Translations under genes and position numbers: made by a program
In this document: positions 14,218 to 26,858 of the stretch, one piece after another
How the letters are laid out: every line of letters starts with the position of its first letter
Numbering within the stretch: the stretch's first letter is position 1
Notes under the pieces: model-generated
Databases searched by the model: none
What the model saw: the letters and a program-made list of their open reading frames with translations, nothing else
What the model was told of the DNA's origin: nothing
From: Treponema sp.
Lineage (GTDB): Bacteria; Spirochaetota; Spirochaetia; Treponematales; Breznakiellaceae
Assembly (NCBI GenBank): GCA_031268975.1
Contig: JAIRWM010000186.1
Coordinates: 1-33,137, forward strand
DNA: 33,137 nt
Direction: 5' to 3'

Positions 14218-14895
14218 ATGAGCGCCGAATTTTCCATATCCCTTATGTGCCTGGACTATTTGAAAATTCGGGAACAAATCGAAATACTCAACACGCGGGC
14301 AGACTATTATCATATAGATATCATGGATGGGCATTACTGCAAAAACATTACATTGTCGCCTGATTTTATGCGGGCGGTAAAGAAAATCTCAAAGCTGCCT
14401 CTGGATGTTCATCTTATGACAGAATATCCCGGCGATTTTATTGACGAAGTAAGAAACGCCGGCGCGGAATGGATATCTCCGCATGCGGAAACTATCAATG
14501 TTGACGCGTTCCGTACAATAAACAAAATAAAGTCCCTTGGGGCAAAAGCCGGTGTTGTATTAAATCCCGCGACTCCCCTGGAGTATATAAAGTATTATGC
14601 GGGGAAACTCGACATGGTAACCATTATGACTGTCGATGTGGGCTATGCGGGGCAGCCTTTTATTGATGAAATGCTCGACAAAATACGGCTGGCAAAACAG
14701 TGGAAAAAACAATACGGCTATACATACAAAATTTCAGTGGACGGATCCTGTAATGTCAAAACTTTTAAAAAACTGCACGATGCCGGCGCGGAAATTTTTG
14801 TAGCGGGATCCTCGGGGCTTTTTTCCCTCGACCCGGATCTTTCCGCGGCCTACGACAGGATGCTGCGGAATTTCAAGGCGGAAACCTCTGTCTAA
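14218..14895 (+). CDS. alsE: D-allulose-6-phosphate 3-epimerase
   Basis: This is a 225-residue TIM-barrel enzyme of the ribulose-phosphate 3-epimerase family. It is closer to E. coli AlsE than to Rpe: SLMCLDYLKIREQIE, ADYYHIDIMDGHY, LDVHLM, GVVLNPATPLE, TVDVGYAGQPFIDEMLDKI and VDGSCN-KTFKKLHDAGAEIFVAGSSGLF all align with AlsE by eye. Metal and catalytic residues (His and Asp in HIDIMD, His in DVHLM, Asp in VDGSC) are present. It would interconvert D-allulose 6-phosphate and D-fructose 6-phosphate. It has a strong Shine-Dalgarno sequence and its own promoter, and it is convergent with the PTS operon, whose last gene ends 16 bases away. A short hairpin (CCTCT/AGAGG at 14885-14899) spans its stop codon. 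Confidence 0.85.
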   Translation: MSAEFSISLMCLDYLKIREQIEILNTRADYYHIDIMDGHYCKNITLSPDFMRAVKKISKLPLDVHLMTEYPGDFIDEVRNAGAEWISPHAETINVDAFRTINKIKSLGAKAGVVLNPATPLEYIKYYAGKLDMVTIMTVDVGYAGQPFIDEMLDKIRLAKQWKKQYGYTYKISVDGSCNVKTFKKLHDAGAEIFVAGSSGLFSLDPDLSAAYDRMLRNFKAETSV

Positions 14896-14910
14896 GAGGC
14901 GCAGGCGGCA

Positions 14911-15495
14911 TTATTTCTGCACGATAAACTTTGGTTTTGCCAGGGGAAACTGAATATCCAGCGATGTATTGCGGCTGAGCCGCGCGCTGATAATCGCGGT
15001 ATTGTCCAGGACCACCCCGAGCCTTTCAAACACTCCAACATTCCGCTCTTCCGGTTTTGCGGAAACCTGGGCGCAGATATACCGCGCCATGCCGACAAGC
15101 TCCATCCGTTGTTTTTCCCTGTCTTTTCCGTTCAGGTGGGGACAAAGTTCGGCAAACGTTTTGTACTTTTCACTAAAAAAATCCGCACATCCGGCAAGAA
15201 ACTCTCCATTGCTGCCGTAAATTTCCCGGTAAAAGGCGTCCACGACGGCCAGGCGGACTTTCTCTTTTACCTCCGCCTGCACCTTACAGCCCATCCAAAG
15301 GCGCATCCCTATAACCAATATAACAGACGCAAGCTCCATGGAATATTTGACAAGGGCTTCTTCATCCATATCCAGATCGCCGGTAACAGACTTGTCCAGC
15401 CCCCGTGAATAACATTCCGACAATAAACCGCTCCAGGTTTCGATGTATTCCCCGAATTTCAACTGTAATTTCGCGCTTAGTTCCTGTAACGCCAC
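14911..15495 (-). CDS. Unknown helical protein, last gene of the PTS operon
   Basis: This is a 194-residue, predicted mostly alpha-helical, soluble protein with no signal peptide. It is rich in Glu, Lys and Leu, contains four cysteines, and ends with the hydrophobic-basic stretch QFPLAKPKFIVQK. I recognise no domain. The start is GTG at 15495 with GGAG six bases upstream, ten bases after the SIS-domain gene. Its position as the final gene of a sugar PTS operon suggests a role in metabolism or regulation of the same substrate. The helical character would fit a regulator or a small accessory protein, but this is only inference. Confidence 0.65.
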   Translation of the reverse strand: MALQELSAKLQLKFGEYIETWSGLLSECYSRGLDKSVTGDLDMDEEALVKYSMELASVILVIGMRLWMGCKVQAEVKEKVRLAVVDAFYREIYGSNGEFLAGCADFFSEKYKTFAELCPHLNGKDREKQRMELVGMARYICAQVSAKPEERNVGVFERLGVVLDNTAIISARLSRNTSLDIQFPLAKPKFIVQK

Positions 15496-15504
15496 AAGCC
15501 GCTC

Positions 15505-16074
15505 CTATTCCAGATTTGCGTGTCTGTCCTTTATGGTCTTTTCGTCAAGCCCTTTTATCCGCATAAGTTCCAGGGTGATGATATCTCCCAGCAGGTAAAG
15601 CTGCTGTTCAAACAATGTCGACATCGGCTGGGCCGAATTAAATTCGCCGGGCCTGGCGAATTTTGTCCGCCCGGCCAGCAGCAATGTTTTATCGGAAAGT
15701 TTTGCCGCGGTGCTTTCCGGCGAACATCCTATGTACAGCAAAACGGCTCCTTTTTCCCGGGCAATGTTCGCTATACCCACGGGGAACATACTTTCTCCGG
15801 AAGAAGAAGCGATGATCAAAGCGTCTCCTTTTTTAATGGGCCGCTCCGTTTCACTTCCTACAAAATTGATGTCCAGCCCCAAATGACAAAGCCGTTTTAT
15901 CCAGGCTTTCATGGAAATAAGCACTCTGCCCACAGCAACAACAAGAATGCGCCGTTCCTTGAGAAGCTCTTCCAGAAAGGCTGTGAAAGACTCCGGAGAA
16001 ATCTGCCCAAAGGCGGTTTCCAGCTCGTTTAGAACAAGGTTTCTGCTTGCGGAAAATGTGCTCACCGGCGTCAC
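15505..16074 (-). CDS. SIS-domain sugar-phosphate isomerase, 6-phospho-3-hexuloisomerase-like
   Basis: This is a 189-residue single SIS-domain protein. The phosphosugar-binding loop reads IIASSSGES, and the C-terminal pattern QPMSTLFEQQLYLLGDIITLELMRIKGL followed by HANLE closely follows HxlB of Bacillus, including the terminal HANLE. HxlB converts D-arabino-hex-3-ulose 6-phosphate to D-fructose 6-phosphate. The GTG at 16074 overlaps the stop of the dehydrogenase gene as GTGA and gives the usual length. The frame is open nine codons further to an ATG at 16101, which would overlap by 31 bases. No hexulose-6-phosphate synthase (HxlA) accompanies it, so it probably does not serve formaldehyde fixation. 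The neighbouring dehydrogenase is a possible source of the 3-ketose phosphate. Confidence 0.8.
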   Translation of the reverse strand: MTPVSTFSASRNLVLNELETAFGQISPESFTAFLEELLKERRILVVAVGRVLISMKAWIKRLCHLGLDINFVGSETERPIKKGDALIIASSSGESMFPVGIANIAREKGAVLLYIGCSPESTAAKLSDKTLLLAGRTKFARPGEFNSAQPMSTLFEQQLYLLGDIITLELMRIKGLDEKTIKDRHANLE

Positions 16075-17129
16075 GCTTTCGCGCTGTAAATTGCTTTGCA
16101 TATATTGACGCGCTGTTTGTATATGTCTTCACAAAGCCGGGGAAGATCTTCCAGTGAAGCCCGGTGGGTTACAAGATCCATAACCTGCATCTTTCCCGCG
16201 TCAAGCATGTCTACTGTATATGTCCACTCATTGATGGGAGTCGCGGCAAAATGGGAATTCCACATTCCCTTGAGGATCAATTCTTTTCTGAGTATTTGGC
16301 TGTGCCGGGAAAGTGGAATAGTTGTATCTTTGTGGGGATTTCCCATAAGTACCACGGTCCCGAATGTCCGCGTACAGTCAATCGCCTGGGCGAGCGCGGC
16401 CCCCGTGCCGGTTCCTTCAATTGCGGCATCGGGCAGGGCGCCATTGTTGATCTTCCTGAATTCTCCGGGTACATCCTGGGTTATCCCGTTTACCACAAAA
16501 CGTTCCCCGCGCTCTCTGGCAAAGGCCACTTTCTGATCAACCACATCCACCAGCATAACGGGGCCCGCCCCAAAAAGCCTTGCCCAGCGGGCGGCCATAA
16601 TGCCAATAGGCCCGGCGCCGAAAATCACCACGGAATTTCCCGCCCGAATTTCCGCCTTGCGAATTGCATGCTGGGCCACCGTGCAGGGTTCTACCAGCGC
16701 CAGAGAATCCGGATCCAGAGCGGGGTTTTTTGTTTCCACAAAATGCCAGGAAGACGGCACAAGGCAATATTCGGCAAAACCGCCGTCGCTCCGGGAACCA
16801 AGATAATCGTAATCCAGACACATGGCATAGTCCGCCGTCAGGCAGCTTTCGCACGTGCGGCAGGGGATGCAGGGAAACACCGCTCCCGTTTTTCCCACAA
16901 GGGCCGGATCGGCCAGGGGACCGGCAGCGGTTATTTCGCCGCCGAATTCATGGCCTATTGTAAGGGGGTATTTTTGCTTGCTTGTTCCCAGTTCAAAAAT
17001 ACGGGGAATATCGGAACCGCAGATCCCGCATGCGGCAACTTTTATTAAGAGCTGTTCTCCCCCAGGCTTCGGAACGGGAACGTCAACGGTTTTAAAACTG
17101 CCTATGGCAAATTCCTGTGCTGCTTTCAT
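16071..17129 (-). CDS. Zinc-dependent hexitol-phosphate dehydrogenase (GatD-like)
   Basis: This is a 352-residue medium-chain dehydrogenase. The catalytic zinc site is seen in GICGSDIPRIFELG and GHEFGGE, and the structural zinc cysteines lie in CIPCRTCESC plus a later Cys. The Rossmann motif is VVIFGAGPIGIMAARWA. YDYLGSRSDGGFAEY and ILRKELILKGMWNS match galactitol-1-phosphate 5-dehydrogenase (GatD) by eye better than sorbitol dehydrogenases. It would oxidise a hexitol phosphate, delivered by the PTS, to a ketohexose phosphate using NAD+. Its start overlaps the IIB stop as TAATG. The substrate and the carbon oxidised are not readable from the sequence. Confidence 0.82.
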   Translation of the reverse strand: MKAAQEFAIGSFKTVDVPVPKPGGEQLLIKVAACGICGSDIPRIFELGTSKQKYPLTIGHEFGGEITAAGPLADPALVGKTGAVFPCIPCRTCESCLTADYAMCLDYDYLGSRSDGGFAEYCLVPSSWHFVETKNPALDPDSLALVEPCTVAQHAIRKAEIRAGNSVVIFGAGPIGIMAARWARLFGAGPVMLVDVVDQKVAFARERGERFVVNGITQDVPGEFRKINNGALPDAAIEGTGTGAALAQAIDCTRTFGTVVLMGNPHKDTTIPLSRHSQILRKELILKGMWNSHFAATPINEWTYTVDMLDAGKMQVMDLVTHRASLEDLPRLCEDIYKQRVNICKAIYSAKA

Positions 17130-17605
17130 TATTTTACCAACGTTGCCACATTAACTGTTTTTGAAGCGGGTATTATCTGCACTTCCACGGTAGTACCGGC
17201 GGCGATAAAGTCCTTGAAAATTTTCCTTTCATCATCATTGGCCGAAACATTCTGAAAAAGCTTTTTCCGTCCGGAGGTCATTCCCATGCCGCCTATGTTG
17301 ATCTTGTCAAACTTGATGCCTTGATCGCTCATTCGCTTCAGCGTCATGGGTTCTTTGACGATCATCATTGTCGGTTTTTTGAGCCCCGCCTTGCAAATGC
17401 CCACAGCGGTATCGACACTCTGGACTTCAATGGAAATGCCGGAAGGAACCAGCATTTTGAACATATCCAGCATAAACTGATCTTTGCTGGTCTTGTCGTC
17501 CACCACCATAATGCAGGAGACATTGCTGTATGCATGAAGCCACGCGGCTACCACCTGACCATGTATAAGCCTGTCGTCAATTCTTACGAATTCCAAATTG
17601 TTCAT
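17129..17605 (-). CDS. PTS mannose/fructose/sorbose family EIIB
   Basis: This is a 158-residue cytoplasmic EIIB of the mannose superfamily. The phosphorylated histidine is in the N-terminal signature RIDDRLIHGQVVAAW. The central IMVVDD and a later MMIVKEP strand also fit the fold. It takes phosphate from EIIA and passes it to the sugar in the IIC/IID channel. The ATG at 17605 has AGGAG five bases upstream; an in-frame GTG two codons earlier is less likely. It lies 64 bases after the IIA gene and overlaps the dehydrogenase gene. Confidence 0.9.
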   Translation of the reverse strand: MNNLEFVRIDDRLIHGQVVAAWLHAYSNVSCIMVVDDKTSKDQFMLDMFKMLVPSGISIEVQSVDTAVGICKAGLKKPTMMIVKEPMTLKRMSDQGIKFDKINIGGMGMTSGRKKLFQNVSANDDERKIFKDFIAAGTTVEVQIIPASKTVNVATLVK

Positions 17606-17669
17606 ATACACTCCTGTTTATTTGTTCTGCCTGTATATGGCTCACTTACCGTCTTGCTCCGGGAGAAGG

Positions 17670-18068
17670 TTACTTCTTCTCCATTTTAAATTCCATTATT
17701 TCTCCGGCGCCGGTTTTCAAAAGTCCTTCAACCAGATCCGCCTGGGTTGAAGTTTCCGTGCGTTCCATGGCCGCGGCCATAACCATGGGGAGATTAACTC
17801 CGGTTATAATCCGGACATTTTTTTCCATACTTAAACGGGCAACGTTATTATTCGGCGTTCCACCGTACAAATCAACCAGGGCAACAAGCCCGTCGCCGCT
17901 GTCAACTCCGGATGCCTTTTCCTGTAAATTTTTATAAAACTCTTCGGGGGCTTCCCCGGGTTGTATACCAACCCCGGCAAACTGTTCGGGAACCCCAACA
18001 AGCATATCAACACATTCAAGCATCGACTGGGCCAGATTACCGTGGGAAACAACTAAAATTCCAACCAT
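17670..18068 (-). CDS. PTS mannose family EIIA
   Basis: This is a 132-residue EIIA-Man type protein. The phosphorylated histidine is His9 in ILVVSHGNLAQSML. The ALVDLYGGTPNNNVARL stretch and the VRIITGVNLPMVMAA segment are characteristic. It accepts phosphate from HPr. It sits between IID and IIB and has its own AAGGAA ribosome binding site. A strong hairpin lies upstream, between it and the IID gene. Confidence 0.9.
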   Translation of the reverse strand: MVGILVVSHGNLAQSMLECVDMLVGVPEQFAGVGIQPGEAPEEFYKNLQEKASGVDSGDGLVALVDLYGGTPNNNVARLSMEKNVRIITGVNLPMVMAAAMERTETSTQADLVEGLLKTGAGEIMEFKMEKK

Positions 18069-18094
18069 CGTCTTTCCTTAAAACCATAGGCGGC

Positions 18095-18134
18095 GAAACT
18101 GCCCAAAAAGGCGAAAGCCTCTTCGGGCAGTTTC
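18095..18134 (-). other. Intercistronic hairpin between IID and IIA genes
   Basis: GAAACTGCCC at 18095-18104 pairs perfectly with GGGCAGTTTC at 18125-18134. The 20-nt loop contains a second stem, AGGC at 18109-18112 with GCCT at 18117-18120. It starts 12 bases after the IID stop codon in the transcript and has no T run, so it looks like an mRNA-stabilising or processing element rather than a terminator. Confidence 0.75.
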
Positions 18135-18146
18135 TCTCAATTTCAA

Positions 18147-18971
18147 CTATGCCGCAAGTATGCCCAGCAGAGACAGAACAATACCAACAACAAAGATAAG
18201 CGCGATAATGGTTATCGGCTTGACACGTTTCCGGAGGAGACCCCAAACCCCAAGAACAATCCCCAGGGGCAGAATTCCCGGAAGCAGCATATCCAATACG
18301 CCGGTCTGGAAGTTAAGGACAACTTCCCCCAACTGGTTGGTAAAGGTCCATTCAAGCGGTATTGTTACCGCGACCCGGGATACGGCCATGTTCCCTATTA
18401 CCATTAACCCAATAACGCTGGCTACCTCAATAAGCCGGTTCATAACTCCGCCCTGGAGGAATTCCAGGATGGCGTTCCGGCCTTTTTTGTAACCGAGCAT
18501 ATACATGTTATAACCAAGTACCAGCATGATTACCTTGTAGGCCACTTCAAAAAGAATCGGTCCGAAAAAGTTTCCCGCCAGCGCCAGCTGTATACAAACA
18601 CCCGCCAGAACGGGGTACACAATGGACTGCGAAACTACATCGCCGATACCGGCCAGGGGCCCCATAAGGGCTGTTCGCACCGCGCCGATATCTTCGGCGG
18701 AAATAGGTTCGCCGTTGGCGCGCTTCTCTTCCATGGCAGCCACAATACCGTGGATAACCGTTCCCATAAAAGACGGCTCGGTATTGAAGAATTCCATGTA
18801 CTTTGAAATTTCCTGGGCATACTGGGAAGGATCGTACAGCCGTTTGATGATGGGCTGTATGGAGTTCGCGTTTCCCAGCGCCTGGAGCCGTTCATAGTTA
18901 TAGCAGGTTTCGCTGGAATATCCCAGAAGCCAGTGTTTGACCAGATCGGATTTTTTAAGTTCCTTTGCCAT
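18147..18971 (-). CDS. PTS mannose family EIID
   Basis: This is a 274-residue membrane component of the mannose-superfamily permease. The long amphipathic N-terminal part contains TCYNYERLQALGNANSIQPIIKRLYD, then FFNTEPSFMGTVIHGIVAAMEEKRA and the strongly conserved ALMGPLAGIGDVVSQ. Several C-terminal hydrophobic segments follow and end at SLLGILAA. With IIC it forms the sugar channel in the inner membrane. The start has AAGGAG, encoded in the last codons of the IIC gene, whose stop lies two bases upstream. Confidence 0.92.
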   Translation of the reverse strand: MAKELKKSDLVKHWLLGYSSETCYNYERLQALGNANSIQPIIKRLYDPSQYAQEISKYMEFFNTEPSFMGTVIHGIVAAMEEKRANGEPISAEDIGAVRTALMGPLAGIGDVVSQSIVYPVLAGVCIQLALAGNFFGPILFEVAYKVIMLVLGYNMYMLGYKKGRNAILEFLQGGVMNRLIEVASVIGLMVIGNMAVSRVAVTIPLEWTFTNQLGEVVLNFQTGVLDMLLPGILPLGIVLGVWGLLRKRVKPITIIALIFVVGIVLSLLGILAA

Positions 18972-18973
18972 GA

Positions 18974-19714
18974 TTAGGACTCCTTCGCTTTCGGCGCACC
19001 GAACATATACACAACGACGCCAATAATGATACCGAAGACGGTGATTGCCATTGTGTCAAGGCCCAGATACCTGGTAAGGAAGAACCCCGCAAAGAAGAAG
19101 GGCATGAGCTTCGCTTTCCCGATATAGTTAAGAAGCATTCCGATACCAAGGGCCGGCATCAGCGCGCCGACTACCGCAAAGGCATCCATGACCGGTTTGG
19201 GGAAATTCTGGAGCCATGAACCGAAAACCGATCCGTACATTACAATCAGAAAGGCCGGAATACCATTGATTACAAGGGATACAAGGAAAGACGGGACATA
19301 ATTCATAACCCGAATCATCTTGAGATTTCCCTTTTCCGCGAACTTGTCCGCTGCATGGACCCAGATGGCGTTCAATGACATATACGCATTCCAGGAAAGA
19401 ACCGCGACAGAACCAAGGACAACGCCTACAGAGGTCGCGGTGTAGATATCAAGGCCGGACACCAGCGCGAGGGCGGTACCGACAGGACCGGCAAACATCG
19501 GATTGCCCGGCATTGAACCGCCGGCGGTGATGAACCCGACATAGGGCAGGTTGATCGCCGCGGCGATCATCATTCCCTGAAGCGGCTGTCCCATCACCAG
19601 ACCAACCAGAAAACCTGACCACAATGGATACAACCAGGTTCTGGTGACGACATGACTGAACCACCATGTACTGCATGTGGTAACCAGTGCAACTAAAATT
19701 GCTTGTACAATCAT
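18974..19714 (-). CDS. PTS mannose/sorbose family EIIC
   Basis: This is a 246-residue polytopic permease subunit. The start MIVQAILVALV and the conserved GFLVGLVMGQPLQGMMIAAAINLPYVGF, followed by AGGSMPGNP, identify the mannose-sorbose EIIC family. The ATG at 19714 has AAGGAG seven bases upstream. The open frame extends 42 codons further, but that portion overlaps the enzyme I gene and lacks family character. A 70-bp gap separates it from enzyme I, with no terminator or second promoter that I can recognise. Confidence 0.92.
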   Translation of the reverse strand: MIVQAILVALVTTCSTWWFSHVVTRTWLYPLWSGFLVGLVMGQPLQGMMIAAAINLPYVGFITAGGSMPGNPMFAGPVGTALALVSGLDIYTATSVGVVLGSVAVLSWNAYMSLNAIWVHAADKFAEKGNLKMIRVMNYVPSFLVSLVINGIPAFLIVMYGSVFGSWLQNFPKPVMDAFAVVGALMPALGIGMLLNYIGKAKLMPFFFAGFFLTRYLGLDTMAITVFGIIIGVVVYMFGAPKAKES

Positions 19715-19784
19715 ACAATTACTCCTTCTTGACAAATTTGGAAAACACGTTTTGTAAATGCTTGTACTGCCTTTACCACCCCCT

Positions 19785-21491
19785 TTACGAATAATTACCG
19801 GGCAGCGCCGCCCGGACAAGTCCGGCTGTTTCCTCCGCATCCCGCGCCGAGGCTATCTTCTCCCCGGCTTTGGCGCATTCCGCCGCACTAAGAATACTCA
19901 GGTGCCTTTTGCAGGAAAGGGCCAGGTTCGTGGAAACGCTGAACTTTCTTAAACCCAGGGCGAGCAATACCGCCATGCCCAGAGGATCTCCGGCCATTTC
20001 CCCGCAGAGGGAACATTCAATTCCCGCCTTGCGGGAACTGTCAATAGTTTTCTTTATGAGCCATAAAACCGCGGGATCCATAAAATTATAAAGGTATTCC
20101 ACATTTTTGTTGTTTCTGTCCGCGGCGTAGGTATATTGGATAAGATCGTTGCTCCCGATACTGACAAAATCTATCAGGGGAGCAAGATGTTCAAGCATAA
20201 TCACGGCGGAAGGAATTTCCACCATGATCCCGATTTTCATTTTTTCGTTAAAAGCTTTGCCTTCGGACAAAAGTTCTTTTTTTGCCCCGGATGTTATTTC
20301 AAGCAGCGCTTCAAGCTCGCCAACCGTGGCGACCATGGGAAACATCATCCTGACATCGCCATAGACGCTTGAACGGAGTATTGCCCGCAGCTGGGTGTTC
20401 AGCAAGTCCGGCTGCTTCAGGCAAATTCGCACCGCCCTGAACCCCATAAACGGATTTTCTTCCTTCGGGAGCTTAAGGCACCGGACATCCTTGTCTCCCC
20501 CTATATCCAGTGTTCTGATAACAAGGGGATTCTGCCCGATTTTTTCCGCCGCCTTTTTGTAAATGGCAAATTGTTCATCTTCGGTGGGAAGCTTGCCGCG
20601 GTTCATGTACAGAAATTCCGTGCGGAAAAGGCCGACGCCGTCCATACCGTATTCGGCGGGCCTGCCCAGCGATACCGGATCGATAACATTGGCCAAAAGC
20701 TGAATACGTTCCCCGTCGGCCGTCCGCGCATCTTTCCCGGTAAATCCCCGTAATTCTTTCCGCAGTTCTTTATACTTTTGTATTTTTTCCGCATAGATGC
20801 TTTTTTCTTCCATCCGGATACCGGTTTCAAAAACCCCCGCCTCCACATCAAGATACGACAGGGAACCGTGCTCTACAGACGCGGCGCCCACGCAGCCGAC
20901 AAGCGTGGGAATCTCCAGACTTGACGCAAGAATGGAGACATGGGAAGTTTTCGTTCCCTTTTCAAGAACAATCCCCGCCACATGCTCCATATCGGCGTAC
21001 AAAAGCATGGACGGCATAAGGTCTTCTCCGGCCAGAATACAATTTTCCGGCAGGCGGGAAATATCCGGATACTCCATCCCCAAAACAAGGTAGGCAACGC
21101 GGCTGGCTATATCGTGGACATCATCGGCACGCTGGGACATATATTCGTCTTCCAGAGATCGGAACATTTCTTCCTGGGTTCCGGAAGCCCTCATAATCGC
21201 GGCAGCCGGTTCATAGCCCTGAGAGGCCAGCTTTTCCATTTCTTCCCGAAAGGCCGGATCGAGAATCATGGTTTCCTGCACGTCAAACAGTTCGCCCAAT
21301 TCACTGCCGGCCCCGGCCCGTTCCTTCGACCGGCGAAGCCGGGCAACCGCCTGTTCAACGGCGCGGTCGATGCTTTCCATAATCCTGTTTTTATCCGCGG
21401 AAAGACTTTTTTTATCCAGATCGAAAGTATGTACCTGGGCAAGAAGATGGGCTTTTTCCAAAGCCTGCCCCGGACTAACCGGAGTTCCCTT
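19785..21491 (-). CDS. ptsI: PTS enzyme I (phosphoenolpyruvate-protein phosphotransferase)
   Basis: This is a 568-residue enzyme I of normal length. The active-site histidine is in GTKTSHVSILA. The PEP-binding C-terminal barrel shows TLDIGGDKD, NPFMGFRAVR, the SIGSNDLIQYT block and CSLCGEMAGD with the catalytic cysteine. It transfers phosphate from PEP to HPr. Start choice: ATG at 21491 has TAGGA eight bases upstream and gives the usual MKGTPVSPG N-terminus. ATG at 21500 directly follows the HPr stop. The gene belongs to the sugar operon rather than to a separate general ptsHI locus, so this enzyme I may be dedicated to this regulon. Confidence 0.92.
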   Translation of the reverse strand, partial: KGTPVSPGQALEKAHLLAQVHTFDLDKKSLSADKNRIMESIDRAVEQAVARLRRSKERAGAGSELGELFDVQETMILDPAFREEMEKLASQGYEPAAAIMRASGTQEEMFRSLEDEYMSQRADDVHDIASRVAYLVLGMEYPDISRLPENCILAGEDLMPSMLLYADMEHVAGIVLEKGTKTSHVSILASSLEIPTLVGCVGAASVEHGSLSYLDVEAGVFETGIRMEEKSIYAEKIQKYKELRKELRGFTGKDARTADGERIQLLANVIDPVSLGRPAEYGMDGVGLFRTEFLYMNRGKLPTEDEQFAIYKKAAEKIGQNPLVIRTLDIGGDKDVRCLKLPKEENPFMGFRAVRICLKQPDLLNTQLRAILRSSVYGDVRMMFPMVATVGELEALLEITSGAKKELLSEGKAFNEKMKIGIMVEIPSAVIMLEHLAPLIDFVSIGSNDLIQYTYAADRNNKNVEYLYNFMDPAVLWLIKKTIDSSRKAGIECSLCGEMAGDPLGMAVLLALGLRKFSVSTNLALSCKRHLSILSAAECAKAGEKIASARDAEETAGLVRAALPGNYS

Positions 21492-21504
21492 CATCCTCGG
21501 CATC

Positions 21505-21765
21505 CTATTCTTCCAGTCCATTGATATATTCAAGCATCTGTTTCAGCGCCTCTTCCTCATCGGTTCCGTCTGTTTTGACAACAACCGTCTCACCGATTTT
21601 GAAGTTACAGTGGAGCACCTTAAAAATGCTTTTGGCGTCACAGTTCCGCTCACCGCATGTAATGGTAACGGCGCTCTGAAACCCCTTACTCAGATTAACC
21701 AGTTTTACCGCAGGCCTGGCATGCAGACCGGTGGGATTTTTGATGACAACTTCGGCGCTAACCAC
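21505..21765 (-). CDS. ptsH: PTS phosphocarrier protein HPr
   Basis: This is an 86-residue HPr. The active-site His is in NPTGLHARPAVKLV. AKSIFKVL carries a Ser at the position that HPr kinase phosphorylates in other bacteria. The start is GTG at 21765 with GAGGG seven bases upstream. It is the first gene after a sigma-54 promoter, with a leader of about 137 nt that can form a hairpin close to the ribosome binding site (TTCG/CGAA arms around 21790-21815) and contains the 10-bp palindrome GCCGATCGGC at 21863-21872. Enzyme I follows after 13 bases. Confidence 0.9.
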   Translation of the reverse strand: MVSAEVVIKNPTGLHARPAVKLVNLSKGFQSAVTITCGERNCDAKSIFKVLHCNFKIGETVVVKTDGTDEEEALKQMLEYINGLEE

Positions 21766-21911
21766 GCAATTACCCTCTCATCCATTGTTCTTCGTACGGC
21801 AGACCTGCGAAACAACCAGAGGGACCGTCGAACAGCCTGCAAGCAATGTTGATTAACTTGCGGCCGATCGGCGCCTCTCGTGTGTTTCGCCGGTTTCTGC
21901 ACTGAAAATAG

Positions 21912-21927
21912 AGCAAGAATCATGCCA
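21912..21927 (-). promoter_or_regulatory. Sigma-54 promoter of the PTS operon
   Basis: On the minus strand the sequence is TGGCATGATTCTTGCT. GG at -24 (21925-21926) and GC at -12 (21913-21914) are separated by exactly ten bases, and the flanks match TGGCA and TTGC[AT]. It overlaps the last codons of the activator gene, whose TGA is at 21920-21922, and points to ptsH. The predicted start is near 21902. Together with the adjacent LevR-type activator this is a strong call. Confidence 0.85.
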
Positions 21928-24769
21928 AAACACTTTTTTGAGGCACAAATTCTTTCCCCAAATCCTGATTTTCTTCCACAGGCGCAAAATTTCCCAGTTT
22001 TAACGCGAGAATTTGTTCAAGCATTTTGTATTCTCCGTCTCCTATGCGTATACGGTACATGGTCTCCAGGGTTTTGCACGCATCCACTAAATCCGCCGAA
22101 GCTTTCCGGGGAGCGCTTTGATTCCGTTCCTCGAAGATCAGCCGTTCAAGCATGGACGCCAGGTGAAGCAGCATCATAATCCGCTTGCCCCGATCCAGCT
22201 TCCCCCTGGATTTTTCAATTTTTTCCATACACTCGTTAAGGTACGGGATGGTTTTTTCGGCGGAAAGATAAAAAAGGTAATTTTCCAGGTATTTGCCGGA
22301 CGCGTATTGTTCTTCCAGGAATCCCGGCTGCGCCTGCTGCGGCCCCTGGCGCAGACACCGGTTTTGCAGTATTTCTCCCAGCCTTTGTACCCCGCTGCCC
22401 AGGACAAATTCCATCGCTGAAATAAACGGAAAGCCTATCTCCAGCCCTTCCACCATGCCGATTACACAGATAAGTTCCTGTTCTTTCGCAAGACTGGATA
22501 TCCTCTGCCGTAACTCCTCAACGGACGGCAGATCAAGCGTTAAAATTTCTATGTAATCGGGAAACTTGAAGCAGTCTTCTATGATTTTTTTAAGCTTTTT
22601 CGCCGCCCCGCATCCGGAAATGCAGGCGGTTACTATAAGCCCCTTTTTCGGCTCGGAAAGCAAATTTTTCGTTTCCAGCCTGTAAAGCTCGTTATAGCCG
22701 TGTTCCAGGGTCTTTAGATGGCTGCGTATTTGCTGTCCTGTTGCCCGGTGCTCCACAGCCAAAATGGCGGCCTCTATTACCATGGACGTACTTATATCGC
22801 TGACAAGGTACAGCTTCTTGTTGTATCGGGCTTCCAAATCCGCGCAGAGTCCAAACAACGCCGGGCTGTCGGTAAGCACCACGAGGTGTTCATAGTCGTC
22901 AAGCTCGGCAATTTTTTTAGCCGCGGCGCGGTAAAGATCTTCCGTTGTTATGTCTTCCATTGCCACGTCAAGCCAGGAAACAAATTCCCTGGCGACAACA
23001 CTGTTGGCAAGCCGGGCCATGTTTTTTGCGCTCCCCAGGCCGTGACATACCACCACTATGCCGCAGCGCTCTTTCTGGTTCTTTTCGTCATATATACGGA
23101 GAATAAGATTGGCGATAATGCCCGTTTCGTTTTCCGGCAGTTCCAGGCCGTATTCCTGTTTCATCATTACAACAATCTGGGACGCCGCGTCGAAAACATC
23201 GGGCCTGTCTTCCCTGACTTTGGAAAAAGCGGGATAAATTATCGTGCCGTTTCCCGGAGGGGAACTTTCTCCGCCGGCCCGGCAGGTTCCGGCATGGGAA
23301 ACCGCTGCGTTGATATGCTGGACTATTACCGAACGGCTCCGTTCATCCAGGGCCAGTCCAAGCTCACAGGTTATGATCTCTTCCACATGGCGGGTAATGT
23401 CGTATATTTTGGACGGTACCTCGTTTATGCCCTGCTTCTCAAAAAGTTCCTCGTCTTGATTCATAAAAAGCCGCTGGAAATAGTTTTTAATTTCCGAAGT
23501 CATAACAAACTCAAGATAGTTCTTGCCCATGTCGTCACCGGCAAATTCCTCATACCTGTGGGCGAGGATCCGGTAAATGTCGGGATTTCCGGCTGATGTC
23601 TGGTAGCGCGGATCGGCGGGAACAACGCTGTTTTCCAATTCCAGAGAAATCGAAAAATCCCTGGCGATAAGATTTATGTCGGAATAAATATCTTTTAGTT
23701 TTCGGATTCCTTCCTTTACGTGACCGGGAAAATCCAGCAAACCAACGTTCAGTGTCTGCTGGTTTTCCATCAGGCAGGATACATAGCTCTGGGCGCAGGC
23801 AACCTTAATGTCGTTTTCCAGCTGCCCCACATTCCCCGGGCAGTCATAGCTTAACAGGGCTTTGATTGCCAGAACGTCCACGGTAATGGCCTTGCCCAGC
23901 TTCACCCCTTCCTGGGTAAAAAGCCGCCGGACAAGATCGAGCCGCTCAATGGGGCTCCTCTGATCCAGAGGCGGCAGGGTTACCACAATGGGGATACGCC
24001 GGTTAAACGCGGCAAGAAGGGCAGAGCCGCGATCTTCGGTCGTTGCCATAATGATTATCGGACTGGCCTTGCGGCTGATATCCGCTTCGCCAAGCCGGTG
24101 GTATTTCCCGTAATCCATAAGGAAAAACAGCATTTCCTGGCTTGTCTCGGGAAGCCGGTGAACCTCGTCCAAAAACAGCACGCCCCCATCGGCCGACTGC
24201 ACCAGCCCGTCGCGGCTCGCGTCCGCGCCGGTATACGAGCCTTTGGCGTACCCGAAAAGCTGAGCCATAATAAGCTGGGGGTTATTGGCGTAATCGGCGC
24301 AATTAAAGGAAACAAACCGCGCGTCATCTTTGATTCTGCCGGCTTTTCTGGCATATTCAAACATTAACTTGGCAAAAGTCGTCTTTCCGACCCCGGTTTT
24401 ACCCCCAATCAACAGAGGAAGACCGCTTAGGGGGTACAGGACGGCCGCTTTGGCCTTTTCAATTTCCATCCCCATGCTGCCGTTATAACCGATAAAGCCC
24501 TCAAAAACCTCGTTTGCGGCGTCCACCGTTAAAGAGGCGTCTTTTTCCGGCATCGGCGTCAATACCGCGGCGCTGGCCCGGTACCGAACCGGCCACCCGG
24601 TTAGTTTATCCACCAATTCGGCCTCGAAAAGCCGGTTAAGATCGGAACTTACATTTGCCCGGGACGCACCAACCGCTCCCGCGATCTCCTCAGTGGTATA
24701 AACCGCGTTCATACCACGCTGATTTTTCATTTTTCTCAAAAATTCATAGACTGCCTGTTTGCGAATCAT
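21920..24769 (-). CDS. LevR-type sigma-54 activator with PTS regulation domains
   Basis: This is a 949-residue transcription activator. In order it has an N-terminal winged helix-turn-helix (residues 1-65), an AAA+ sigma-54-interaction domain (about 90-330) with Walker A GGKTGVGKT at 122-130, the sigma-54 contact loop as GSYTGA at 177-182 and Walker B LFLDE at 198-202, a first PRD (about 450-565), an EIIA-Man-like domain with His576 in VVVCHGLGS, an EIIB-like segment with cysteines near GLIVTACISGCG, and a second PRD with MLLHLASMLERL near the C-terminus. In LevR-like proteins, phosphorylation by HPr and by the cognate EIIB tunes activity to PEP and substrate. It has no Shine-Dalgarno sequence; a -10 box lies five bases before the ATG. 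It would drive the operon from the sigma-54 promoter at its own 3' end. Confidence 0.9.
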   Translation of the reverse strand: MIRKQAVYEFLRKMKNQRGMNAVYTTEEIAGAVGASRANVSSDLNRLFEAELVDKLTGWPVRYRASAAVLTPMPEKDASLTVDAANEVFEGFIGYNGSMGMEIEKAKAAVLYPLSGLPLLIGGKTGVGKTTFAKLMFEYARKAGRIKDDARFVSFNCADYANNPQLIMAQLFGYAKGSYTGADASRDGLVQSADGGVLFLDEVHRLPETSQEMLFFLMDYGKYHRLGEADISRKASPIIIMATTEDRGSALLAAFNRRIPIVVTLPPLDQRSPIERLDLVRRLFTQEGVKLGKAITVDVLAIKALLSYDCPGNVGQLENDIKVACAQSYVSCLMENQQTLNVGLLDFPGHVKEGIRKLKDIYSDINLIARDFSISLELENSVVPADPRYQTSAGNPDIYRILAHRYEEFAGDDMGKNYLEFVMTSEIKNYFQRLFMNQDEELFEKQGINEVPSKIYDITRHVEEIITCELGLALDERSRSVIVQHINAAVSHAGTCRAGGESSPPGNGTIIYPAFSKVREDRPDVFDAASQIVVMMKQEYGLELPENETGIIANLILRIYDEKNQKERCGIVVVCHGLGSAKNMARLANSVVAREFVSWLDVAMEDITTEDLYRAAAKKIAELDDYEHLVVLTDSPALFGLCADLEARYNKKLYLVSDISTSMVIEAAILAVEHRATGQQIRSHLKTLEHGYNELYRLETKNLLSEPKKGLIVTACISGCGAAKKLKKIIEDCFKFPDYIEILTLDLPSVEELRQRISSLAKEQELICVIGMVEGLEIGFPFISAMEFVLGSGVQRLGEILQNRCLRQGPQQAQPGFLEEQYASGKYLENYLFYLSAEKTIPYLNECMEKIEKSRGKLDRGKRIMMLLHLASMLERLIFEERNQSAPRKASADLVDACKTLETMYRIRIGDGEYKMLEQILALKLGNFAPVEENQDLGKEFVPQKSVLA

Positions 24770-24816: not shown

Positions 24817-25836
24817 TTAACGCTGCGAAGGTTCCCCGCCTTGGCGGGCGATTTCCGAACGGTTTCTGCCCTGTTCTTTTGCCCGGCGAAGGGCGGAATC
24901 GGCGGCAAATACCAGTTCCCGCTCATTGGAGGCGTGGACCGGGGCAACGGCTATTCCAAAGCTTGCCCTGACGTCCAGTGTTACCGTCTCCCGGGAACCG
25001 GGGCTTTTTGCTACTTTTACCGGGCTGTTCATCACATTTTGCCTGATATGCTCGGCCACACCGAAGGCGCCCCTGCCGTCGGTATCCGGCAGCAATACGG
25101 CGTACTCGTCGCCCGAAAGCCTGGCCGCCATATCGCCCGGCCGGCCTGTGTTTTTAAGAATTTCCGCGACGGCGATAATGACTTTGTCTCCCGCCTGCGT
25201 ACCATAAGCGTCGTTAATCGCGTGAACCCTGTCCAGATCTATCATTATCAGGGACATTTTTCTCGCGCCTACGCTGCCCAGCTTGAATTTGTCCCTGATT
25301 GATTCCTCCAAAAAACTTTTGTTGTAAAGGCCGGTAAGCTCATCGGTAATGGCCCGGCGGCGGGCCGCTTCGCCCCAGGTTGCCAGATCTTTCAGGTGCC
25401 GCGAGGTCTGGTTAAACCAGATGGTCTGAACACTTCCTATGGAGTTAAGAATCCTGACCCCGATCATGGGGTGTTCAAAGATGATGCGGTAAAAATCAAT
25501 ACCCTGAAGTACCATGATGTCGGAAATCTCTTTCGCGATAATTGTCGCCGAACGGGGTTCATTGGCAATTATCGACATTTCCCCGAAAAACGCCCCCGGG
25601 GCTATGGAAAACATCAGGCGCTGGGTTCCGTCCGACTGGGCCCGGTGGGCGCTTAACGAACCGGAAAGCAGCACAAACATATCTTCGCCCTTGTCACCTT
25701 CCTCAAAAACTTTCTCTCCCTGTGCCAAGCGGCGCCGCTCCATAAAGGCCAGTACGGCATTGAATTCCAGAGCGCTTAATCCGTTAAAAAAAGGGGAGTT
25801 TATCAGTACGGGATCGACATTGGGCGCCGGGTTCAC
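24817..25836 (-). CDS. Cyclic-nucleotide-binding diguanylate cyclase
   Basis: This is a 339-residue protein. An N-terminal cNMP-binding beta-barrel (about residues 15-130) includes FFGEMSIIANEPRSATIIA, which resembles the phosphate-binding cassette with its Arg. A helical linker and a GGDEF domain (about 165-335) follow. The active-site loop reads SGDEY, a permitted variant of GGDEF. MIDLD and the following DAYGTQAGDKVI have the metal-binding Asp and family residues. It probably makes cyclic di-GMP under control of a ligand at the N-terminus. The GTG at 25836 overlaps the stop of the upstream paralogue as ATGTGA, with a G-rich ribosome binding site. It ends 47 bases before the LevR-type gene. 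Confidence 0.8.
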   Translation of the reverse strand: MNPAPNVDPVLINSPFFNGLSALEFNAVLAFMERRRLAQGEKVFEEGDKGEDMFVLLSGSLSAHRAQSDGTQRLMFSIAPGAFFGEMSIIANEPRSATIIAKEISDIMVLQGIDFYRIIFEHPMIGVRILNSIGSVQTIWFNQTSRHLKDLATWGEAARRRAITDELTGLYNKSFLEESIRDKFKLGSVGARKMSLIMIDLDRVHAINDAYGTQAGDKVIIAVAEILKNTGRPGDMAARLSGDEYAVLLPDTDGRGAFGVAEHIRQNVMNSPVKVAKSPGSRETVTLDVRASFGIAVAPVHASNERELVFAADSALRRAKEQGRNRSEIARQGGEPSQR

Positions 25837-26858
25837 ATCGCCCCCTTTCCGGCCGGAACGGCATGGCAACGGGTAATTTTGCCGCCGCCCTGTTTCCAGG
25901 CATCAAGCAAAAGTGAATAACACCCTTCAAAAAGCTTATCCCAGTTATGGCCGTCTTCGGGCCAAAGGGCATAGCAGATGGTTCCGGAAAAGGAAAACGC
26001 GGGTATATCGCCCTGGGCGGGAACGGGCGGCAGGGAAGCAATGGCGCGGGAAAGCTCTTTGGCTACCTTTTCCGCGAGGGAAACCCCGCATTTGTTGATC
26101 AGTATCCCGGTTTCGTTGCTTTTGAAACGGAGCGGCCAGCCCCGGCCTATACGGCGGGTAATGTTTTTAAGCATCATGGCAATTTTTACCATAGCCTCGT
26201 CCCCCGCAGCATGACCGCGGGAATCCACCAGTATTTTGAAACGATCCGGCTTAAGCATGATAAGCGCTGTAGGAACTTCGAGAATACGGTCAATTTCGTC
26301 GGACAGAAATGTCTGTTTCCAGAGGCCGGTTCCGGGATCTTCATAAGCCCGGCGGTGTAGTTCATTTACCCAGGAAAGGTTTTCCAGAAGCATCTTTTGA
26401 GTGCTTTTTATCCGGCTTGTCATCATCACAATGGAATTAAGAAGAATACGCGACACGATATGGGGCTCTTCGGCAATAAAATCTTCCATCGAAAGCCCCA
26501 TCGCGGGAAACATGATAAGCACGGAGTCTTCCGACGCTTCGGCGCTGGCATCGTATTCGGCTTTCCGGGCAAAGTCAAAATCGCCGATGGTATCGCCGGG
26601 AGCGAATTGAGCCATTTCGTCACTGCCCCCGTCGTCCCTGGGCTTAAAAACCCGGATGTTGCCTTCGGTGAGCATATAGAAGTGTTCGGCTTTCTGCCCG
26701 ATGGAAAAAAGCCGGGCTTTTTTCCTCAAATGGATAACGCTGGACCGTTCGGCGACATAATCAACCTCACGCTCCAGAAGTGAGCTGAACAATTCCGTCT
26801 TTTTTATCGGAGCAGGATCCAGTATCTGCTTTAAGGCTTGCTGTTCCAAAAACACCAC
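25833..26858 (-). CDS. cNMP-binding protein with degenerate GGDEF domain
   Basis: This is a 341-residue paralogue of the next gene, with the same plan: a cNMP-binding barrel (about residues 35-130, with a cassette region GDTIGDFDFARKAEYDASAEA) and a GGDEF-like domain (about 170-330). In place of GGDEF the loop reads SNETG, and the first metal-binding aspartate pattern (MIDLD in the paralogue) is MLKPD here. It is therefore expected to lack cyclase activity and may act as a c-di-GMP effector, GTP-binding protein or partner of the intact enzyme. Start codons at 26858 (GTG) and the next codon are both GTG. A TATATA-like -10 lies upstream, but the promoter is unclear. Confidence 0.72.
   Translation of the reverse strand: MVFLEQQALKQILDPAPIKKTELFSSLLEREVDYVAERSSVIHLRKKARLFSIGQKAEHFYMLTEGNIRVFKPRDDGGSDEMAQFAPGDTIGDFDFARKAEYDASAEASEDSVLIMFPAMGLSMEDFIAEEPHIVSRILLNSIVMMTSRIKSTQKMLLENLSWVNELHRRAYEDPGTGLWKQTFLSDEIDRILEVPTALIMLKPDRFKILVDSRGHAAGDEAMVKIAMMLKNITRRIGRGWPLRFKSNETGILINKCGVSLAEKVAKELSRAIASLPPVPAQGDIPAFSFSGTICYALWPEDGHNWDKLFEGCYSLLLDAWKQGGGKITRCHAVPAGKGAM

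Follow-up and report, generated by a model that had tools for sequence, protein, structure and literature searches.

The window analysed here is a contig of 33,137 nt from the draft genome of a Treponema sp. (JAIRWM010000186.1, assembly GCA_031268975.1). On its minus strand, from 24769 to 14911, it carries in order a LevR-type sigma-54 activator, HPr, enzyme I (EI), the IIC, IID, IIA and IIB subunits of a mannose-family (Man) phosphotransferase system (PTS), a Zn-dehydrogenase, an HxlB-like isomerase and a closing 194-residue uncharacterised protein for which we use the label U194 (Table 1). All eleven genes of the block, including a convergent AlsE gene, are genuine open frames at the expected coordinates and, apart from U194, match their families. 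We consider it quite likely, judging from sequence, that this cassette is a horizontally spread, self-contained catabolic system for a polyol, probably a hexitol, with a private phosphoryl chain and sigma-54/LevR control. Literature searches returned no paper dealing with this operon.

Table 1. Features of the PTS block, listed along the minus strand with the convergent AlsE gene last; positions are those of the window.
Feature	Position	Strand	Basis
LevR-type sigma-54 activator (N-terminal helix-turn-helix (HTH), AAA+, PRD, EIIA-Man-like domain)	21920..24769	-	Pfam
Candidate -24/-12 promoter, TGGCAT-N5-TTGCT	21912..21927	-	Motif scan; same-place sites in relatives
Operon HPr	21505..21765	-	PF00381, 87.5 bits; alignment to E. 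coli HPr
Operon EI	19785..21503	-	TIGR01417, 514.4 bits (cut-off 341.7); tree
Man-family IIC	18974..19714	-	PF03609, 188 bits; start by alignment with Enterococcus IIC
Man-family IID	18147..18971	-	PF03613, 278 bits; 84% identity to Calditrichales IID
Man-family IIA	17670..18068	-	PF03610, 91 bits
Man-family IIB	17129..17611	-	PF03830, 142 bits
Zn-dependent medium-chain dehydrogenase/reductase (MDR; ADH_N/ADH_zinc_N)	16071..17129	-	Pfam; best PDB match 4a2c (GatD)
HxlB-like SIS isomerase	15505..16074	-	TIGR03127, 141.4 bits; PDB 1m3s (YckF)
U194, conserved uncharacterised alpha-helical protein, last operon gene	14911..15495	-	No family match; 17-member family; AlphaFold2
AlsE (D-allulose-6-phosphate 3-epimerase)	14218..14895	+	NF007266, 335.6 bits (cut-off 271); best PDB match 3ct7 (AlsE)

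The overlaps and spacing of the minus-strand genes agree with a single transcript. The IIB and dehydrogenase genes overlap as TAATG and the dehydrogenase and HxlB genes as GTGA, EI starts 1 base past the HPr stop, and the remaining junctions leave gaps of 1-80 nt, the widest within the operon downstream of HPr being 70-80 nt. Two starts were corrected, to ATG 21503 for EI (the longer frame opens with TTG at 21533) and to ATG 19714 for IIC; for HxlB, GTG 16074 is probable and ATG 16101 a possible alternative. The block is more than a chance arrangement, because it is conserved in 36 other loci. Searching GTDB contigs with an IIC profile gave 35 loci, and a plasmid search had already given the Enterococcus form; the cassette is common to loci of Bacillota, Actinomycetota and Calditrichota. 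An earlier note on this DNA had proposed a single operon under sigma-54 control that brings its own HPr, EI, permease, activator and sugar enzymes, and had suggested comparing gene order in related genomes. Families, junctions and conserved order bear the proposal out, the control being of the sigma-54/LevR type: a Calditrichales locus (MX18-03, L044) repeats the order from activator to U194, as LevR-HPr-EI-IIC-IID-(epimerase)-IIA-IIB-dehydrogenase-HxlB-U194, where the epimerase gene separates IID from IIA, and a locus of a Ruminococcaceae isolate (Marseille-P2935, L047) repeats it from HPr onward. In the window the 78-nt IID-IIA gap (-34.1 kcal/mol, z -5.5) holds, in the place where relatives have the epimerase gene, an 18-bp hairpin with a 4-nt loop (18134-18095, minus strand), perfect when G-U pairs are counted and without a U tail. 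It has no further copy within the window, where Rfam also gave zero matches, and might mark a past deletion, stabilise the RNA or be a repeat element.

The permease genes bring together the EII-Sor, EIID-AGA, EIIA-man and PTSIIB_sorb families expected of a Man PTS, all over their Pfam cut-offs. The NCBIfam subfamily cut-offs were missed (97.7 bits against 339.85 for TIGR00822, 213.2 against 292.75 for TIGR00828, 96 against 163.6 for TIGR00854 and 76.4 against 98.35 for TIGR00824), and on these scores the window permease is a divergent Man subfamily. Its IIC is the only EII-Sor permease in the host genome.

The EI and HPr of the operon qualify as such on equivalog score and active-site residues: EI keeps its SH motif and Cys loop, and His15 and Ser46 of HPr are intact in the alignment with the E. 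coli protein. Among 19 EIs placed in a tree, that of the window groups in a single clade (support 100/100, on a long branch) with the EIs from the operons of L044, L047 and a Clostridia metagenome-assembled genome (MAG; L062), and the host's other EIs fall outside it; identity is 48-49% within the clade versus 34-38% to those other EIs. The operon HPr is likewise 49-52% identical to the operon HPrs of the same three loci versus 28-45% to the host's other HPrs. Further HPrs are present in the genomes of L047 and L062 (G295 and G296), and the operon EI is the sole EI found there. On this evidence EI, and HPr by pairwise identity, belong to the cassette rather than to the host's other EI/HPr sets, so that the private pair described in the earlier note is real. 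The EI clade, the sole-EI genomes and the kept catalytic residues are the strongest evidence, of a comparative kind, and suggest that the cassette energises itself through its own EI and HPr. L062 has HPr and EI and then reaches its contig end. Not every related locus is built this way: L063-L065 have HPr and no EI in the operon, and Erysipelothrix-like and Olsenella-like loci have neither.

The host genome encodes four EIs and four HPrs. Outside the window, one contig carries EIIC-GAT, IIB, IIA, EI and HPr in a row (C172), another EIIC-GAT, IIB, EI and HPr (C108), a third an EI adjoining another dehydrogenase (C57) and a fourth an HPr kinase, an HPr and a sigma-54 activator (C164). The earlier picture of a lone wired PTS in a PTS-poor genome is thus not sustained, since the genome has three more EIs and as many more HPrs, and two of each lie next to EIIC-GAT permeases (L012 3254-7566 and L013 5170-10160). 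Private EI/HPr sets therefore recur in this genome and are not peculiar to the block. Genomes of the order mostly have one or two EIs; a sampled genus-mate has five.

The activator has the DNA-binding, sigma-54 AAA+ and PTS-phosphorylatable domains of a LevR-type (type II) enhancer-binding protein. Sigma54_activat, PRD and EIIA-man all score above their Pfam cut-offs, the HTH match (TrmB) is weak and below its cut-off, and Pfam did not resolve a second PRD or an EIIB-like domain; the DagR model gave 418.7 bits against a cut-off of 1400. At the GAFTGA position the protein reads GSYTGA, and in that motif an A-to-S change is described for LevR and F-to-Y for a different activator (PMC3162934). 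RpoN is encoded elsewhere in the host genome. Between activator and HPr lies the candidate -24/-12 promoter, which has GG-N10-GC and fits TGGCAC-N5-TTGCW with one mismatch. It is the top of nine matches in the window, a number below chance expectation, and a single site is not significant alone; the case rests instead on position and on same-place conservation, with equivalent sites ahead of the first PTS gene in seven relatives (L044, L047, L068, L038, L071, L072 and L075). Downstream of this site the HPr leader contains two 12-nt arms, ACCGGCGAAACA and TGTTTCGCAGGT, 68 nt apart (21894-21803, minus strand), a pair that may be an operator or an RNA stem.

Retention of both the catalytic and the structural Zn ligands, together with the GatD match, makes the MDR enzyme a likely polyol-phosphate dehydrogenase. 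By the established chemistry of their families, the HxlB-like isomerase and AlsE would act at C2-C3 of hexulose 6-phosphates, yielding fructose 6-phosphate. A reduced substrate, a polyol, is indicated because the operon has a dehydrogenase, and a hexitol is favoured because the HxlB-like and AlsE chemistry runs to fructose 6-phosphate; we regard a hexitol as the most likely candidate, with about an even chance of being correct. Membership of AlsE in the operon is not supported. It is convergent with the operon, the stop codons lying about 15 nt apart, and probably has its own promoter; by its orientation it is outside the operon. As side observations, a DeoC-like aldolase and a short-chain dehydrogenase/reductase (SDR) lie immediately 3' of U194 in L047 (16348-17969), where other relatives such as L045 have a class II aldolase. 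A second HxlB-like and MDR dehydrogenase pair, 36-40% identical, adjoins the cassette in L049, L051 and L052 (upstream, minus strand) and in L068 and L069 (on the IIC strand), and because of this recurrence the pair can be viewed as a module.

U194 had no sequence match in Pfam, NCBIfam or PDB, and the AlphaFold2 model, of seven helices with short strands near both ends (mean confidence, pLDDT, 92.1), had no fold match in PDB or the viral BFVD at E <= 0.001. The Foldseek matches returned were rejected, all having E > 0.1 and low TM-scores, and weak Pfam matches, each to a single family member, were set aside as chance. A single-sequence search of 294 genomes of the order and of GTDB contigs was empty and made the protein look like an orphan, yet the IIC-based scan gave relatives at the same operon place, so the empty search reflects limited sensitivity. 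The alignment now holds 17 members. Few residues are invariant (Glu16, Phe190); the N-terminal part has a conserved (F/S)DEY region and the C-terminal part an F-(I/Y)-V strand, and the L044 homologue is 42% identical. With clades A and B defined from the tree of IIC and IID, U194 occurs in 20 of the 21 clade-A loci with a contig that extends over its position, and in none of the 13 clade-B loci. When 196 genomes around the Erysipelothrix locus were searched with a profile, three had it, two of them new. U194 is not tied to EI/HPr, the LevR activator or HxlB, because it occurs without each of them; its constant companions in the loci seen are IIC/IID and the dehydrogenase. Since it tracks those genes, it probably assists the permease or dehydrogenase step without being a catalyst itself, and its fast divergence with almost no invariant polar residue makes a structural or accessory role likelier than catalysis. 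The suspicion in the earlier note that this protein is a component of the system is thereby supported, as operons of this type have it as a conserved family.

Of the 294 genomes of the order, 16 have a Man-family IIC, and among them only the host genome shows the operon. The order's own IIC loci were considered as the source of the gene order and none is syntenic. Among 200 genomes of the family the next-best IID is 41% identical, and identities to L044 reach 84% for IID, 74% for IIC, 68% for the dehydrogenase, 63-65% for HxlB, 64% for IIB, 58% for IIA, 54% for the activator, 52% for HPr and 49% for EI. In the IIC and IID tree the window falls within a clade consisting mostly of Bacillota and Actinomycetota. 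The operon is probably a horizontally spread cassette acquired by the host; it is commoner in Bacillota and Coriobacteriia, and a treponeme-specific feature is not supported. Beside the block, at 24817-26858 on the minus strand, is a tandem pair of cNMP-binding/GGDEF proteins that the family conserves, and the adjoining site holds different genes in each sister genome. Genus-mates have these flanking genes at 76-88% identity but with other neighbours, and codon use in the block is near that of the host (distance 0.05-0.06) and unlike that of L044 (0.14). Native flanks with differing neighbours and host-like codon use make it most likely that the block inserted at a variable site and has since settled there, and that it is not a contaminant.

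Several observations weigh against a self-contained hexitol system. The dehydrogenase reaches 199.8 bits on NF007642 (galactitol-1-phosphate 5-dehydrogenase), with a cut-off of 550, and the isomerase falls short of the TIGR03127 (6-phospho-3-hexuloisomerase, HxlB) cut-off of 160. AlsE stands apart from the operon, most clade-A relatives have a different, Rpe-like epimerase, and accessory DeoC, class II aldolase and SDR genes in other loci hint at different end points. The earlier claim that the block encodes every component from phosphoenolpyruvate (PEP) to fructose 6-phosphate was therefore too strong: it hinges on an unproven substrate and on two enzymes below the GatD and HxlB cut-offs. A pentitol cassette, in which D-arabitol or ribitol enters through the PTS, the dehydrogenase yields ribulose- or xylulose-5-phosphate, the epimerase works as Rpe and the HxlB-like protein has another role, has to be considered because of those Rpe-like epimerases and because in an L. 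salivarius plasmid locus (L041) a Man-type PTS and Zn-dehydrogenase adjoin Rpe, transaldolase-like Fsa and transketolase genes. The epimerases inside clade-A operons score 204 and 195 bits, near the Rpe cut-off of 212.6, and PTS routes for arabitol that use an arabitol-phosphate dehydrogenase are described (PMC6685057). We nevertheless think it unlikely, since the window epimerase is AlsE above cut-off, as are those of Enterococcus and Pectinatus, the HxlB gene adjoins the dehydrogenase gene in many loci, the operon has no transketolase or transaldolase gene, and the L041 dehydrogenase is just 27% identical to that of the window. An L-sorbose-like route is also conceivable, with a ketose as substrate, the MDR enzyme as ketose-phosphate reductase and an SDR finishing the route. 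Sor operons pair an SDR with an MDR enzyme, and Enterococcus operons likewise have an SDR beside the MDR enzyme. The SDR is absent from the window operon and from most clade-A operons, the top MDR match is GatD, and HxlB and the epimerase would be left idle, all of which make this route improbable.

The private chain invites doubts of its own. Cross-talk from the host's three other EI/HPr sets could occur, and the chain is not essential to the cassette, because clade-A operons of Erysipelotrichia and Coriobacteriia lack EI and HPr. One might then argue that the pair is a redundant paralogue and that the host's general sets energise the permease. Against this stand the active-site motifs, every one of which is kept, the separate EI clade co-inherited with the operon, and the two genomes in which the operon EI is the sole EI found; we judge redundancy improbable, if slightly less so than the L-sorbose-like route. 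The remaining concern is that the window is a single contig from a draft MAG (92.95% complete, 4.5% contamination), that other sampled genomes of the family lack the cassette and that its nearest relatives are in other phyla, as would be expected if an assembly or binning artefact had brought in an operon from another organism. The block shares its single contig with the genus-like flanks, however, and its codon use is close to that of the host and unlike that of L044, so we think an artefact very improbable.

For a self-contained polyol system, the following sequence of events can be envisaged. The substrate, or its lack, would set the phosphorylation of the activator's PRD and EIIA domains through the same HPr and EII proteins, and the activator would switch on E-sigma54 at 21927-21912. 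Phosphate from PEP would pass to the private EI, HPr, IIA and IIB, and then to the polyol during its entry through IIC/IID. The Zn-dehydrogenase would oxidise the polyol phosphate. Fructose 6-phosphate would then arise as the HxlB-like isomerase, together with an Rpe/AlsE-superfamily epimerase, shifted the keto group and inverted the configuration at C3. Here an EI clade is bound to one transporter operon and has probably moved with that operon among Bacillota, Calditrichota and this spirochaete-like lineage; as the EI moves with the transporter, a receiving cell would gain a functioning uptake system at one stroke. How specific parallel EI/HPr pairs are within one cell becomes directly testable, and an unannotated, well-folded family gains a clear functional address. 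A bolder proposal, offered tentatively as a possibility we do not favour, is that U194 is an undescribed family with a fold outside PDB and a dedicated accessory of the Man permease and dehydrogenase, and that the private EI-HPr pair is insulated, so that a complete PTS moves between phyla working at once.

Among known and related systems, the closest operons are those of L044 and L047, which share the cassette with its own HPr, EI, isomerase and U194 (IIC 74-79%, IID 82-84% identical) and differ in having an Rpe/AlsE-like epimerase between IID and IIA and no convergent AlsE seen adjacent. The Enterococcus operon LevR-IIA-IIB-IIC-IID-MDR-HxlB-SDR-AlsE (E. raffinosus plasmid NZ_CP104765, L038, and L071-L078), for which the literature searched held no functional study, is alike in activator type and -24/-12 promoter and in IIC (48-50%), IID (53-54%), dehydrogenase (42-44%), isomerase (36-39%) and AlsE (47-49%). 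It differs in lacking HPr, EI and U194, in an extra SDR, in having AlsE within the operon and in gene order. GatD (PDB 4a2c) is the top structural-database match of the window dehydrogenase, and in contrast to the GatD system the window operon is without tagatose-6-phosphate genes. The lev operon of B. subtilis encodes a fructose transporter and has no EI or HPr. It resembles the window in its LevR-like activator, mannose-family PTS and sigma-54 promoter (PMC3162934). General PTS proteins are usually viewed as common to all permeases and, in Firmicutes, as mostly of vertical descent (PMC2405797). EI and HPr are nevertheless described within transporter or kinase operons, for example in Mesorhizobium loti, where a fused HPr-EI goes with a glucitol-class PTS, and in dihydroxyacetone kinase clusters (PMC2405797); these share with the cassette an operon-dedicated phosphoryl chain and differ in transporter class, in partly fused proteins and in lineage. 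A Man-family PTS under LevR control is thus already known, and what is new is this variant, which brings its own phosphoryl chain and includes a protein family not described before.

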